Virus record (IMG/VR): IMGVR_UViG_3300026263_000013
Location: 1 to 24,927 of that record
Length of the DNA: 24,927 bases
DNA from: a virus
Strand: one strand, 5' to 3'
This document shows, in pieces, positions 5,633-24,657 of this stretch. Position numbers and translations under genes: made by a program. The notes under the pieces were generated by a model. It saw only the letters and a list, made by a program, of their open reading frames with translations. It had not been told where the DNA came from and ran no database searches. Numbering within the stretch: the stretch's first letter is position 1; every line of letters starts with the position of its first letter.

Positions 5633-5640
5633 TATAAATA
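5633..5640 (+). promoter_or_regulatory. T4-type late promoter TATAAATA
   Basis: Perfect match to the T4 late -10 element TATAAATA, recognised in T4 by gp55 sigma with gp33 and the sliding clamp. It lies in the gap after the replication genes, 17 bases before the next start at 5658. It marks the switch from early/middle to late-type transcription. Confidence 0.8.
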
Positions 5641-7147: not shown

Positions 7148-8368
7148 ATGTTTAATTTTAAAGGTTTCATAACAAAGGAAAAGAACACACATTTAGAACA
7201 TCTAGAAGATGATATAATCAATAGAGGTTCCAGAGGTGGAGATAATGCTGTAAAATTTCTAAAATCAATTAGAAATATGTTAGCAGGGTCCTCTGGTGGT
7301 AAAGTTAACATGTCTGTTAAGTGGGACGGAGCTCCTGCTATTGTATGTGGAATAAATCCAGAAAACGGTAAATTCTTTGTTGGTACTAAATCAGTATTCA
7401 ACGTCAAACCAAAAATCAATTATACACCAGGAGATATTATGAGTAATCATAGTGGACCTGTTGCAGATAAATTACTAGTCTGTTTAAGAGAATTAAAAAA
7501 ATTAAGAATAAGAGGTATCTACCAAGGAGATTTACTCTTTACAAATGATACTAAAATACAAGTCATAGATGGAGAGTCTATGATATCTTTCACACCAAAC
7601 ACAATCACATATGCAACACCAGTAAACTCTACTCTAGGTAAAAAGATTAGAAGAGCAAGAATGGGAATAGTATTTCATACAAGTTATACAGGTAAAGATA
7701 TGAAAAGTTTAGGTGCTGGTTTTGGTACAATATCTGGTAGATCAGGATCATCGGCAGTATTTTTAGCAAGTGCTGGATATACTGATACTTCCGGTTCATC
7801 TACATTTACTAGTGGAGAGTTGGCAAGATTTGATGGTTTAATTAGAATGGCTGAAGGCTCTTTAGGTAAAGCTTCATCTATACTAAATGAAATGTCAAGA
7901 TCAAATGATTCATTGTCAGTAGGTTTTAGATTGAAGGCTTTCTTTAATCATTATATTAGAAACACACAAGGTCATATGGGTAAGGTTAAACAATTACAAG
8001 GTATGTTTAGAGATTACTATGAGAATATTTTAACGGAAGAAATAGCAAATAGAAAAACACCAAAAGGTAAACAAAAGTATATAGACCTATTAAATACTAA
8101 TTTAAAATGGATTGATAGAAATGACAATGCATTATATTTTGCTATAGCTTCTCACGTAAGTTTAGGTAATGCAAAGAACTTTTTAATATCTAAACTATCA
8201 CAAATACAAAGTATAGGTCACTTTATTAGAACATCAAATGGTTACAGAGTAACCAATCCAGAGGGTTATGTTGCAGTAAACAGATCAGCTGGTGCAATAA
8301 AATTAGTAGACAGATTAGAATTTAGTAGATCAAACTTTACTATTGCTAAAGATTGGGTAAAAGGATAA
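7148..8368 (+). CDS. DUF6267-like protein with ligase-like KWDG motif
   Basis: A 406-residue protein. Residues 58-61 are KWDG on a predicted strand, followed by another strand and GKFFVGTKS (74-82). This is the arrangement of motif I (K-x-D-G) in DNA/RNA ligases and capping enzymes, where the lysine takes the nucleotide. A possible motif III is IYQGDLLF (124-131) and a possible motif IV is MGIVFH (172-177). From memory it resembles phage proteins labelled DUF6267. If the motifs are right it would be a nucleotidyl-transferring enzyme, but the substrate is unknown. The N-terminus MFNFKGFITKE is a weak match to the capsid-targeting peptides of its neighbours. The ribosome site before 7148 is poor. 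Confidence 0.55.
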   Translation: MFNFKGFITKEKNTHLEHLEDDIINRGSRGGDNAVKFLKSIRNMLAGSSGGKVNMSVKWDGAPAIVCGINPENGKFFVGTKSVFNVKPKINYTPGDIMSNHSGPVADKLLVCLRELKKLRIRGIYQGDLLFTNDTKIQVIDGESMISFTPNTITYATPVNSTLGKKIRRARMGIVFHTSYTGKDMKSLGAGFGTISGRSGSSAVFLASAGYTDTSGSSTFTSGELARFDGLIRMAEGSLGKASSILNEMSRSNDSLSVGFRLKAFFNHYIRNTQGHMGKVKQLQGMFRDYYENILTEEIANRKTPKGKQKYIDLLNTNLKWIDRNDNALYFAIASHVSLGNAKNFLISKLSQIQSIGHFIRTSNGYRVTNPEGYVAVNRSAGAIKLVDRLEFSRSNFTIAKDWVKG

Positions 8369-19947: not shown

Positions 19948-20547
19948 ATGGAACATTTAGATTTAATAATACAGCTAGCAACAAAATTCTGGATGTGGAC
20001 TGTATTGATATCACTAATTTTAATTGGTGCAATTATCAACTGGTCAGACAGAATACATTTAAAAGGCAGAGATAGAAGATTCAAATATGATGAAATGCCA
20101 CATATGAAACCTATATTAATACCAACTAAATCAAAAGGTTTTTGGGGTGGTATATTACTATGGTTATTATCAGTAAGAACATGGCAACTAGCAAAAGATT
20201 TTAAATACGAACTAGACGGAACAAAGTATGTTATACCGGAAGGTTTTATATTTGATGGTGCAAGTGTACCAAAATTTTTAGCCTCGTTTTTATCTCCAGT
20301 AGGTGTTTTACTTATTGGTGGTCTAGTACATGATTATGCCTACAAGTATACTGCTTTAAGACAGCAAGGTACTAGTAAAGGTGCAATAACAATATTAGGC
20401 AAAGCAGAAGCAGATAGAATATTCAGAGACATTAATATAGAGGTTAACGGATTTCATCTACTAAACTATTTAACTTATTGGGTATTAAGAGGTTTTGGTT
20501 TTGTAGCATGGAATAAACACCGAAAGGTGAACGCTAAAATAAAGTAA
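19948..20547 (+). CDS. DUF1353 family membrane-anchored protein
   Basis: A 199-residue protein. Residues about 10-32 are a membrane segment (FWMWTVLISLILIGAIIN). The C-terminal part has the DUF1353 pattern: FKYELDGTKYVIPEGFIFDGASVP, where the segment PEGFIFDGASVP is the hallmark, then GGLVHDYAYKY with a conserved H-D. DUF1353 proteins are phage proteins of unknown activity, and a hydrolase-like role on the cell envelope has been considered. It is followed by holin- and spanin-like genes, so I place it in the lysis group. The start has an AAGGAG site. Confidence 0.75.
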   Translation: MEHLDLIIQLATKFWMWTVLISLILIGAIINWSDRIHLKGRDRRFKYDEMPHMKPILIPTKSKGFWGGILLWLLSVRTWQLAKDFKYELDGTKYVIPEGFIFDGASVPKFLASFLSPVGVLLIGGLVHDYAYKYTALRQQGTSKGAITILGKAEADRIFRDINIEVNGFHLLNYLTYWVLRGFGFVAWNKHRKVNAKIK

Positions 20548-20603
20548 GGAGACGAAATGGGAAAATTTCAAGACTTTAAAAATAGCACTATAAAAAAAAG
20601 GAG
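20546..20603 (+). promoter_or_regulatory. two consecutive ribosome binding sites for the holin-like gene
   Basis: AAGGAG at 20546-20551 serves ATG 20557 (5-base spacer), and a second AAGGAG at 20598-20603 serves the in-frame ATG 20611 (7-base spacer). Two strong sites in front of two in-frame starts suggest that both products are made. Confidence 0.6.
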
Positions 20604-20769
20604 AAAACATATGGAATGGTTAAAAGGAAGAATGAAGGAACTATCATCACTACATGGTGGCGCCTTAATAGCAATAGGATTAGTAGTCTTATTTGCAGGT
20701 CCATTTGCTAAAATGGCAGCTTGGGCTGCTATCGCATACGGAGCTTGGGCAATTTGGAAGAAAGACTGA
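20557..20769 (+). CDS. dual-start holin-like membrane protein
   Basis: The long product is 70 residues and the short one, from ATG 20611, is 52 residues. The short form has two hydrophobic stretches, GGALIAIGLVVLFAGPF and AKMAAWAAIAYGAWAIW, and a basic end (KKD). The extra 18 residues of the long form carry many positive charges (KKRRK). Lambda S makes a holin and a longer, more basic antiholin in the same way. Both starts have good ribosome sites. It lies directly before spanin-like genes. A holin/antiholin role is inferred from layout and topology, not from sequence identity. Confidence 0.6.
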   Translation: MGKFQDFKNSTIKKRRKHMEWLKGRMKELSSLHGGALIAIGLVVLFAGPFAKMAAWAAIAYGAWAIWKKD

Positions 20770-20784
20770 TAGTTAATCTACACC

Positions 20785-21249
20785 ATGGGATTTAGATTAT
20801 TTTTTATAGGCATTATTTTAAGCGCCCTTTTGGGCGCTGGTGCCTATGTAATGAAGCTCCAAAAAGATAACGTTATATTAAAAGAGAACGCTATCAAAAT
20901 GGAATCAGCAATAGCTGATCAAAAGAATTTAATTGAAAATCAGAAAAAAGATTTTCAAGAAATATTAGACGCTAATAATAAGATGAACGAGTTGGTTAGT
21001 GTTCTAAAAAAAGACCTTGACGAATTAGATAAGAGGTTTAATAAAAAGAATAGAGACGTAGGTAAATTAGCAATTGCTAAAACGAAATCTATTGAACGAA
21101 TAACAAACGGTGCGTCAGCTCTTGCTACAAGATGTATAGAGATTGCAAGTGGATCGCCACTAACTGAAAGTGAATTGAATGCTACAAAGAAGTCAGAAAT
21201 TAATACTGAATGTCCTAGTATCGCTAATCCTAATTACGTCCCTTACTAG
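20785..21249 (+). CDS. Rz-like inner-membrane spanin
   Basis: A 154-residue protein with one N-terminal membrane helix (residues about 4-22, FRLFFIGIILSALLGAGAY) and a long charged coiled coil after it (LKENAIKMESAIADQKN and further). This is the topology of Rz i-spanins: a signal-anchor with a periplasmic coiled coil. The end is proline-containing and has two cysteines. The next gene, an Rz1-like lipoprotein, starts inside this one in another frame, as in lambda Rz/Rz1. It would join the outer-membrane partner to break the outer membrane at lysis. Confidence 0.7.
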   Translation: MGFRLFFIGIILSALLGAGAYVMKLQKDNVILKENAIKMESAIADQKNLIENQKKDFQEILDANNKMNELVSVLKKDLDELDKRFNKKNRDVGKLAIAKTKSIERITNGASALATRCIEIASGSPLTESELNATKKSEINTECPSIANPNYVPY

Positions 21250-21565
21250 TTGTAGTGGAGTAAAGAAGTTAAGCATATTTAAACAAGAAGTACCAAGGGA
21301 AAAACTCAATCTGAGCACTCCCACACCACTTGAATTGGAAAATTTAAAGTGGATCATCATCACTTCAGAAAATGCAGATGAAGTCTTTAAAAAGCTAGAG
21401 GAAAAAGGTATTGATCCTGTACTATGGGGTCTTACTGATAAGGACTTTGAATTACTTGCTAAGAATTTCGCACAAATACGTAACCAGCTAATGCATACCA
21501 ATAAATTATTGGATAAATACAAAGAGTATTACGAACCAAAAGAAGACAAAAAGGAGACAAAATAA
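21179..21565 (+). CDS. Rz1-like outer-membrane lipoprotein (o-spanin)
   Basis: A 128-residue protein with a lipoprotein signal peptide: basic start, hydrophobic core (LILNVLVSLILIT), and lipobox L22-T-S-C25, which predicts lipidation of Cys25. The mature part has LKWIIITSENADEVF and KDFELLAKNFAQIRNQL, resembling a phage Rz1-like family I recall. It overlaps the Rz-like gene by 71 bases in another frame. It is longer than lambda Rz1 and not notably proline-rich, but some phage spanins are long. The role is inferred from topology and position. Confidence 0.65.
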   Translation: MLQRSQKLILNVLVSLILITSLTSCSGVKKLSIFKQEVPREKLNLSTPTPLELENLKWIIITSENADEVFKKLEEKGIDPVLWGLTDKDFELLAKNFAQIRNQLMHTNKLLDKYKEYYEPKEDKKETK

Positions 21566-22583: not shown

Positions 22584-23663
22584 ATGAAATTGAATTTAAA
22601 AAAGAATGTTCAGAATATAGTTGGTGTTGTAATGTTAGTTGCTGTATTATTAGCAGTAGCATTTACTAGTCACAGTAATAAAGGACAAGAGGTAGAAGTT
22701 AAAAAAGAAATAGGTTTACTTCAAACAGTAAAAGAAAGAGGTTATGTTATATGTGGAGTTAATGCTGGTTTACCAGGTTTCTCTGCTCAAGATGAAGATA
22801 CAGGAGTTTGGAGTGGGTTAGATGTTGATTTCTGTAAAGCAGTATCAGCTGCTATATTTGGAGACGAAACTAAAGTAGAATTTGTTGGACTAAATGCTAG
22901 TCAAAGATTTCCAACATTAGCGTCTGGCAATATAGATTTACTTGCTAGAAATACTACTTGGACAATTAGTCGTGATGTTAACTTGATGTTTGAATTTGCA
23001 GGAGTTAACTACTATGACGGTCAAGGTTTTTTAATACCAACAGAATTAGGCATTAAGAGTGCCAAAAATTTAGACGGTGCGTTTGTTTGTATTACAAAAG
23101 ATACAACGTCTGAATTAAACTTAAACGATTACTTTGCCGAAAACAATATGACATATAAACCAATATATGTTGAGGGTAATAAAATGGCAAAAGCAAAACT
23201 ATTTGGTGGTGAGTGTGATGTATTCACAACAGACGCCTCTGGTTTAGCAAGTGCTAGATCAGGTGCTGAAGACCCTAGTAAATGGATGGTATTACCAGAA
23301 ATTATATCTAAAGAACCATTAGGTCCAGCAGTAAGACAAGGCGACCAAGAGTGGGAAGATGTAGTTAGATGGACACACTTTATAATGGTTAATGCTGAAG
23401 AAGCAGGTATCACTTCCGAAAATGTGGATATGATGTTAACTGCTAAATCAAAAGAGATTAAAAGAATATTGGGCGTAGAAGGATATGTTGGTCCAATGTT
23501 GGGATTAGGTATGAAATTCGGATATAATATAATAAAACTTGTTGGTAACTACGGTGAATCATACGAAAGAAATGTAGGACCAAATACTCCTCTAGCATTA
23601 GAGAGAGGATTAAATAAACTTTGGAAAGACGGTGGCGTTATGTACGTACCACCAATTAGATAG
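22584..23663 (+). CDS. aapJ: AapJ-like general L-amino-acid ABC transporter substrate-binding protein
   Basis: A 359-residue periplasmic binding protein. Residues about 10-28 form a hydrophobic signal or anchor (IVGVVMLVAVLLAVAF). The mature part has the AapJ/YhdW hallmarks: KERGYVICGVNAGLPGFSAQ, then GLDVDFCKAVSAAIFGD, RFPTLASGNIDLLARNTTWT, NYYDGQGFLIP, and TTSELNLNDYF. AapJ captures amino acids and hands them to the AapQMP permease. Length is full for the family and no frameshift is seen. No permease or ATPase gene is in the window, so it would need the host's AapQMP. No lipobox or clear signal-peptidase site is seen, so it may stay membrane-anchored. Confidence 0.9.
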   Translation: MKLNLKKNVQNIVGVVMLVAVLLAVAFTSHSNKGQEVEVKKEIGLLQTVKERGYVICGVNAGLPGFSAQDEDTGVWSGLDVDFCKAVSAAIFGDETKVEFVGLNASQRFPTLASGNIDLLARNTTWTISRDVNLMFEFAGVNYYDGQGFLIPTELGIKSAKNLDGAFVCITKDTTSELNLNDYFAENNMTYKPIYVEGNKMAKAKLFGGECDVFTTDASGLASARSGAEDPSKWMVLPEIISKEPLGPAVRQGDQEWEDVVRWTHFIMVNAEEAGITSENVDMMLTAKSKEIKRILGVEGYVGPMLGLGMKFGYNIIKLVGNYGESYERNVGPNTPLALERGLNKLWKDGGVMYVPPIR

Positions 23664-24234: not shown

Positions 24235-24657
24235 ATGGCTAAATTAGGTGATAAAACTGATTTCAGTTATAGAGTAAAGAGAGTAACCAAAGTCGTAGAC
24301 GGTGATACAATAGATGTAATACTGGATATGGGTTTCAATATTCTATTTGCACAAAGAGTTAGATTGTTTGGTATAGATACACCAGAATCTAGAACAAGAG
24401 ATTTAGTTGAGAAGAAATTCGGATTAAAATCTAAAAAATTCTTACAAGAACAATTAAAAAAAGCAACAAAGATTACAATCAAAACATACAGAGGTGATGA
24501 GACCGGTAAGTTTGGTAGAATACTAGGCGATGTATGGTGTGATGGTAAATCTGTTAACCAATTAATGTGTAAAGTAGGTCATGCTGTAGCTTACTATGGT
24601 CAAAACAAAAAACTTGTTGAGAACGCACATTTAAAGAATAGAAAAAGAGTGAGGTAA
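24235..24657 (+). CDS. SNase/thermonuclease family nuclease
   Basis: A 140-residue protein with the staphylococcal-nuclease fold motifs: VVDGDT (residues 20-25), RLFGIDTPE (43-51) and KFGRILG (92-98). Catalytic residues map to R43, E51 and R95, and calcium-binding D22, D48 and T49 are present, so it should be active. The family cleaves DNA and RNA with calcium. No signal peptide, so it stays in the cell. In a T4-like phage it could degrade host DNA or recycle nucleotides. The ribosome site is GAGG. Assignment to the family is strong; its target is not. Confidence 0.88.
   Translation: MAKLGDKTDFSYRVKRVTKVVDGDTIDVILDMGFNILFAQRVRLFGIDTPESRTRDLVEKKFGLKSKKFLQEQLKKATKITIKTYRGDETGKFGRILGDVWCDGKSVNQLMCKVGHAVAYYGQNKKLVENAHLKNRKRVR

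Follow-up and report, generated by a model that had tools for sequence, protein, structure and literature searches.

A two-helix holin candidate in a T4-like marine phage and an upstream second start found in one lineage

The locus and its two starts

The DNA analysed here (the window), a virus record of 24,927 bases, is part of a T4-like marine phage. The closest DNA matches with a name are short stretches of cyanophages, single-cell marine virus records and Pelagibacter phage HTVC008M. The part of interest holds a small gene, referred to below as the holin candidate, between a DUF1353 gene and a pair of spanin-like genes:

19948..20547, + strand: N-terminal TM helix followed by a DUF1353 domain (PF07087, phospholipase A2-like; Pfam 4.5e-14)
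20546..20551, + strand: outer Shine-Dalgarno (SD) site AAGGAG (TAAGGAG when counted from 20545); it overlaps the DUF1353 stop codon (sequence)
20557..20610, + strand: in-frame N-terminal extension of 18 codons, MGKFQDFKNSTIKKRRKH, restricted to the window and six closely related contigs (L001-L006)
20598..20603, + strand: inner SD site AAGGAG within an A-rich leader
20611..20769, + strand: core two-TM protein of 52 aa, the holin candidate, with the family start ATG at 20611 (start conservation, alignment, AlphaFold2)
20785..21249, + strand: Rz-like i-spanin (PHROG 739, 8.9e-08)
21179..21565, + strand: Rz1-like o-spanin, a lipoprotein with lipobox LTSC, overlapping the Rz gene (PHROG 812, 6.2e-07; sequence)

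The ATGs at 20557 and 20611 lie in the same frame, 54 nt apart, and share the stop codon at 20767-20769, giving products of 70 aa from the outer start and 52 aa from the inner one. The outer ATG follows TAAGGAG at a spacer of 5 nt and the inner follows AAGGAG at a spacer of 7 nt, exactly as the initial annotation had placed the two sites and their starts. Ten ATGs on the + strand of the window have a 6-nt SD at good spacing, and 20557/20611 is the sole in-frame pair within 30 codons; likewise, of 40 candidate genes the holin candidate alone has, within its first 30 codons, an in-frame ATG preceded by a 6-nt SD at normal spacing. Under a first-order Markov null, 0.087 such in-frame SD-ATG pairs are expected per strand and 8% of simulations contain at least one. 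On composition alone the pair is thus mildly unusual and not extraordinary, so conservation must decide. RNA structure around both starts was not significant (z -1.0), and the count of sigma-70-like promoters near the gene was not above expectation.

A T4-like late promoter sequence, TATAAATA, occurs in exact copies at 5633, 7080, 15628 and 24884, exclusively on the + strand, and three of the boxes lie just upstream of gene starts (5658, 7148 and 15683); by sequence these are likely T4-type late promoters. No exact copy is found at the holin candidate gene, and a near-match, TATAAAAA, at 20589 was ruled out as a promoter since it is too close to the inner ribosome-binding site (RBS) to serve it. 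Two further genes were noted downstream. A host-like auxiliary gene for a periplasmic solute-binding protein of the amino-acid type (PF00497) lies just past the lysis region, at 22584-23663, and positions 24235-24657 encode a Staphylococcal-nuclease-like protein (PF00565) which in several relatives directly follows Rz1.

The DUF1353 protein TtaP has phospholipase A2 activity with a His/Asp dyad (PMC11525133). In the DUF1353 protein of the window, H128, D129 and D156 are invariant in 16 of 16 aligned homologues and lie in two helices of the AlphaFold2 model. A structure search with this model matched the long N-terminal helix only, with no phospholipase among the matches listed. The gene may, from its sequence, encode a lysis-associated lipase; because a membrane-anchored, phospholipase A2-like enzyme adjoins the holin candidate and the spanins, the arrangement suggests a lipid-degrading step in lysis. 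The family is labelled 'tail assembly chaperone' in PHROG 1158, a label that we consider doubtful.

Conservation of the starts and the nature of the extension

A search with the 70-aa form fetched 74 relatives and a profile of the core fetched 80 more, out of a family of at least 534 IMG/VR loci. The inner start lies behind an SD-like site in all 97 distinct ORFs examined, and its codon is ATG in every one of them but L110, which has TTG. Among the same ORFs the outer ATG is confined to the window and its six close contigs, and a separate pattern scan for DNA encoding [FY]QDFKN..TIK matched these six alone. Its presence in every relative leaves no doubt that the inner site is real, and by this alignment the inner start is the start of the family. 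The dual start is thus not a property of the family, and conservation of a single start in relatives is the outcome that the initial annotation had named as counting against its proposal.

Within the seven-contig clade, L001 is the one relative in which both sites match the AAGGAG of the window exactly. L002-L006 have GGGAG as the inner site and TAAGGA, TAAGG or AGGGA as the outer; the outer SD is weak in L005 but otherwise the SDs are kept, and all seven contigs retain both starts. From the sequences, a dual start specific to this clade is therefore possible. In a tree of the DUF1353 proteins, the extended contigs that were tested cluster, corresponding to one change (support 68/85); L112, which lacks the extension and is the same contig as L024, is placed near them. 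The extended contigs fit a single gain, and the extension is best read as a recent one. Upstream in-frame GTG or TTG codons in L021, L042, L044 and L046 were ruled out as starts, since they fall within the DUF1353 gene, which is read in another frame. Separately, the holin candidate of L069 begins M-I-K-M, by sequence a lambda-like close dual start, in that contig only.

The 18 added residues had been described as strongly positive. They do carry a net charge of +6 (+7/-1), but most of this comes from the inner RBS, AAAAAAAAGGAGAAAACAT, whose in-frame translation is KKRRKH. The leader ACTATAAAAAAAAGGAGAAAACATATG, which in the window reads TIKKRRKH in frame, is identical in L031-L035 and nearly so in L024, L025 and L074, and in all of these it is non-coding. 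Because the leader is kept in relatives where it is not translated, the basic charge of the extension appears to be largely a by-product of the inner RBS, although such a tail could be put to use all the same.

Whether the long form is translated is evenly balanced in our judgement. In favour are the strong outer SD of the window and the presence of an SD in most extended members, the start and frame kept in seven contigs, a single whole-codon, in-frame deletion in L004-L006, and a pN of 0.08-0.12 vs a pS of 0.31-0.44 between the window and the other extended contigs (0.04-0.07 vs 0.43-0.47 in the core). On the other side, the extension ratios rest on 6-9 nucleotide differences only, and some of this DNA would be under constraint as an RBS regardless of coding.

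The same observations bear on the simplest alternative, namely that the inner start alone matters and the outer ATG is neutral or yields a minor, functionless product. The family-wide conservation covers the inner start alone, and composition yields one such pair in about 8% of comparable windows. Against it stand the outer SD, TAAGGAG with a 5-nt spacer, which ranks with the best in the window, and the kept start and frame, the whole-codon deletion and the pN below pS. We give this alternative a sizeable, though minor, share of our credence.

The core protein family and its gene neighbourhood

Family members are 52-57 aa long with two hydrophobic helices by hydropathy and alignment, and the earlier description of a two-helix membrane protein following the inner start holds. 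The AlphaFold2 model of the core is of low confidence (mean pLDDT only 68) and places helices at residues 2-11, 14-29 and 31-51. The alignment gives a short N-terminal helix, then two TM helices joined by a conserved turn, the second rich in W and A. The N-terminal stretch is mostly net positive, and the C-terminus is usually basic in the alignment and weakly positive to neutral by charge, a pattern which by the positive-inside rule fits an N-in/C-in topology.

No PHROG, Pfam or NCBIfam model accepts the core protein, and no holin family model matched it. Holin families are many and mutually unrelated, so such a match is not a required feature. A Foldseek viral search with the hairpin model, which is too weak for interpretation, gave no match. 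The only deposited phages with relatives at significance are four Melnitz genomes; in Methylophilales phage Melnitz the family member is gp32 (L075 5013-5174, 53 aa). A search of a genome collection gave one match, in a MAG contig with a gene neighbourhood like that of L022 and L023.

An Rz gene lies within 1.5 kb of the holin candidate (HOL) in 31 of 80 distinct loci, and the gene orders among these include DUF1353-HOL-Rz-Rz1 and HOL-Rz-Rz1-DUF1353. In L069 (2112-4348) the order is endolysin-HOL-Rz-Rz1-CHAP-like hydrolase, with overlapping Rz and Rz1 genes and an endolysin identified by PHROG 181 (1.3e-73) that carries PG_binding_1. In L163 the holin candidate is directly 5' of an endolysin, and these are the only two of the 80 loci with an endolysin neighbour. 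A putative M15-type peptidase seen by eye downstream in L141 and L142 was left out of this count, as Pfam gave no match. A second small protein of 77 aa, apparently with two TM helices, is encoded between DUF1353 and the holin candidate in L043 (2745-2978) and also in L036, L098 and L133. It has no family match and no match in deposited phages; it is possibly a partner or a second holin.

In 41 of the 80 loci, no spanin, DUF1353 or endolysin gene was recognised within 1.5 kb. The neighbours there include SNase homologues, a class 3 lipase and, judged by eye, proteins resembling UV-damage endonuclease and HesB. The lysis genes of T4-like phages can be scattered, so the missing lysis neighbours are weak evidence. 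The class 3 lipase (PF01764, 1.5e-20), encoded close to the holin candidate in L116, L121, L125 and L154, is a second lipid hydrolase family accompanying it.

HTVC008M has DUF1353 and Rz genes with no holin candidate between them, and the gene is therefore not universal. The initial suggestion of a SAR11-type phage is plausible, since, of the named genomes, that of HTVC008M has the closest DUF1353 and Rz genes, but HTVC008M itself does not have the holin candidate. Its Rz homology (L083 5050-5583) is split over two frames, a 75-aa annotated ORF and then the rest, which is a frameshift or a sequencing error.

The two-TM architecture, the spanins in different gene orders and the endolysins next to the gene in L069 and L163 favour holin activity of the 52-aa core, which we consider probable. 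This is weakened by the 41 loci where lysis neighbours were not recognised, by HTVC008M and by the missing match to a holin model. The first of these points, together with the phospholipase A2-like and class 3 lipase neighbours, would also suit some other small membrane protein encoded by chance in the lysis region, such as one that works with the lipid hydrolases; its position beside spanins in several gene orders and beside endolysins in two contigs argues against this, and we think it rather unlikely.

Known dual-start systems and the preferred reading

The S gene of phage 21 produces the class II pinholin S21 68 and the antiholin S21 71 from two in-frame starts (PMC9671378). Like S21, the window gene is small, has two TM helices, adjoins Rz/Rz1 and has two in-frame starts. 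However, the S21 starts are three residues apart and those of the window gene 18, with a short form of 52 aa; in addition, the dual start is found in one clade only, holin families give no sequence match and the holin role here is putative. The initial annotation compared the gene with lambda S (S105/S107), and this likeness extends to the two in-frame starts, the basic N-terminal addition in the longer form and the spanin genes downstream. It is otherwise loose, as lambda S has three TM helices and the core two, S107 adds two residues and the long form 18, and the window starts have no significant RNA structure. The lysis regulator gp62 of phage N4 also has two TM helices and two alternative starts each preceded by an SD, and its termini are cytoplasmic (PMC12642591), as the charge pattern would suggest for the window protein, but it is 109 aa long, is paired with a separate pinholin, gp63, and has been studied experimentally.

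Melnitz gp32 belongs to the same family as the window gene and lies a few genes from the Rz/Rz1 and DUF1353 genes of that phage; it differs in having a single start (AAGGAG at 7 nt) and is annotated as hypothetical. The Melnitz paper proposed that a CsgGF curli pore acts perhaps like a pinholin (PMC9004378); the word holin is absent from it, and the phage is described as being without lysin-like genes besides gp67 (PMC9004378). By its sequence, gp32 offers a simpler lysis candidate for Melnitz than the curli pore. Holins are also unmentioned in a survey of pelagimyophages (PMC7029224).

The gene could be a true dual-start holin/antiholin as in lambda S or phage 21, the long form acting as antiholin and the short one as holin in a ratio set by the two RBSs. 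Apart from the weak outer SD in L005, the seven contigs of the clade retain both starts with their SDs, the long form adds its net +6 at a presumably cytoplasmic N-terminus, and known antiholins are distinguished by N-terminal basic residues (PMC9671378). However, the outer start is missing from the rest of the family, the basic residues are those of an RBS leader that is kept where it is non-coding, and the extension is nine times the length of that in S107. We regard this reading as unlikely and, judging from the alignment, the antiholin reading as unsupported as a family trait. What stands of the original holin/antiholin proposal is the holin reading, by its two-TM architecture and its Rz/Rz1 and endolysin context, but not a dual start outside seven contigs.

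The prohead protease of T4-like phages cleaves by the rule L/I-x-E. An N-terminal [FY]xx[FY] motif is present in all extended members ([FY]QDF; TYQDF in L006), and the first nine residues of the extension, MTYQDFKND in L006, resemble MKTYQEFIAE of T4 ipII/ipIII; the motif, which is short, occurs in 7 of 39 N-termini of the window (one of them a signal/TM helix) vs 2.3% of internal positions. That the extension is a peptide like the T4 capsid-targeting sequence (PMC10229621, PMC5694885), sending part of the protein to the prohead and making the long form a virion component, is nevertheless very improbable, as a two-TM membrane protein would be odd cargo, the extension has no acidic L/I-x-E site and no E in any extended contig, and no donor gene sharing this N-terminus was found, the search giving short or unrelated ORFs only. 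Other window proteins with [FY]xx[FY] N-termini start at 7148, 8368, 10485, 12814, 17472 and 17593, and some of these may be internal head proteins.

We therefore favour, with reasonable though not high confidence, the combined reading of a holin candidate with an ancestral inner start and a recent, local gain of the outer one. The gene would be the phage's holin, minimal and class II-like with two TM helices, and its normal product would come from the inner ATG at 20611. In the lineage of the window, an upstream in-frame ATG with its own SD would have been gained recently, directly behind the DUF1353 stop, so that phages of this lineage probably also make some of a longer, 70-aa form whose cytoplasmic tail is basic. 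Should this form be functional, the simplest role would be to slow triggering, its extra positive charge holding the N-terminus inside, as a weak antiholin or a timing modulator; actual antiholin action of the long form seems to us improbable. Less likely again is the boldest version, in which an unnamed, large marine family of minimal holins has one lineage whose new start turns an RBS into the basic tail of an antiholin; if true, a dual-start regulator would have been caught at its origin.

The observation of two starts is thus confirmed, and the holin reading is plausible and strengthened. Little is known about the lysis genes of T4-like phages of the SAR11 and OM43 types, and a widespread family found with spanins, and in two contigs with endolysins, provides a concrete and testable holin candidate for them. 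The dual start is a secondary, lineage-level curiosity which could show how an antiholin originates.
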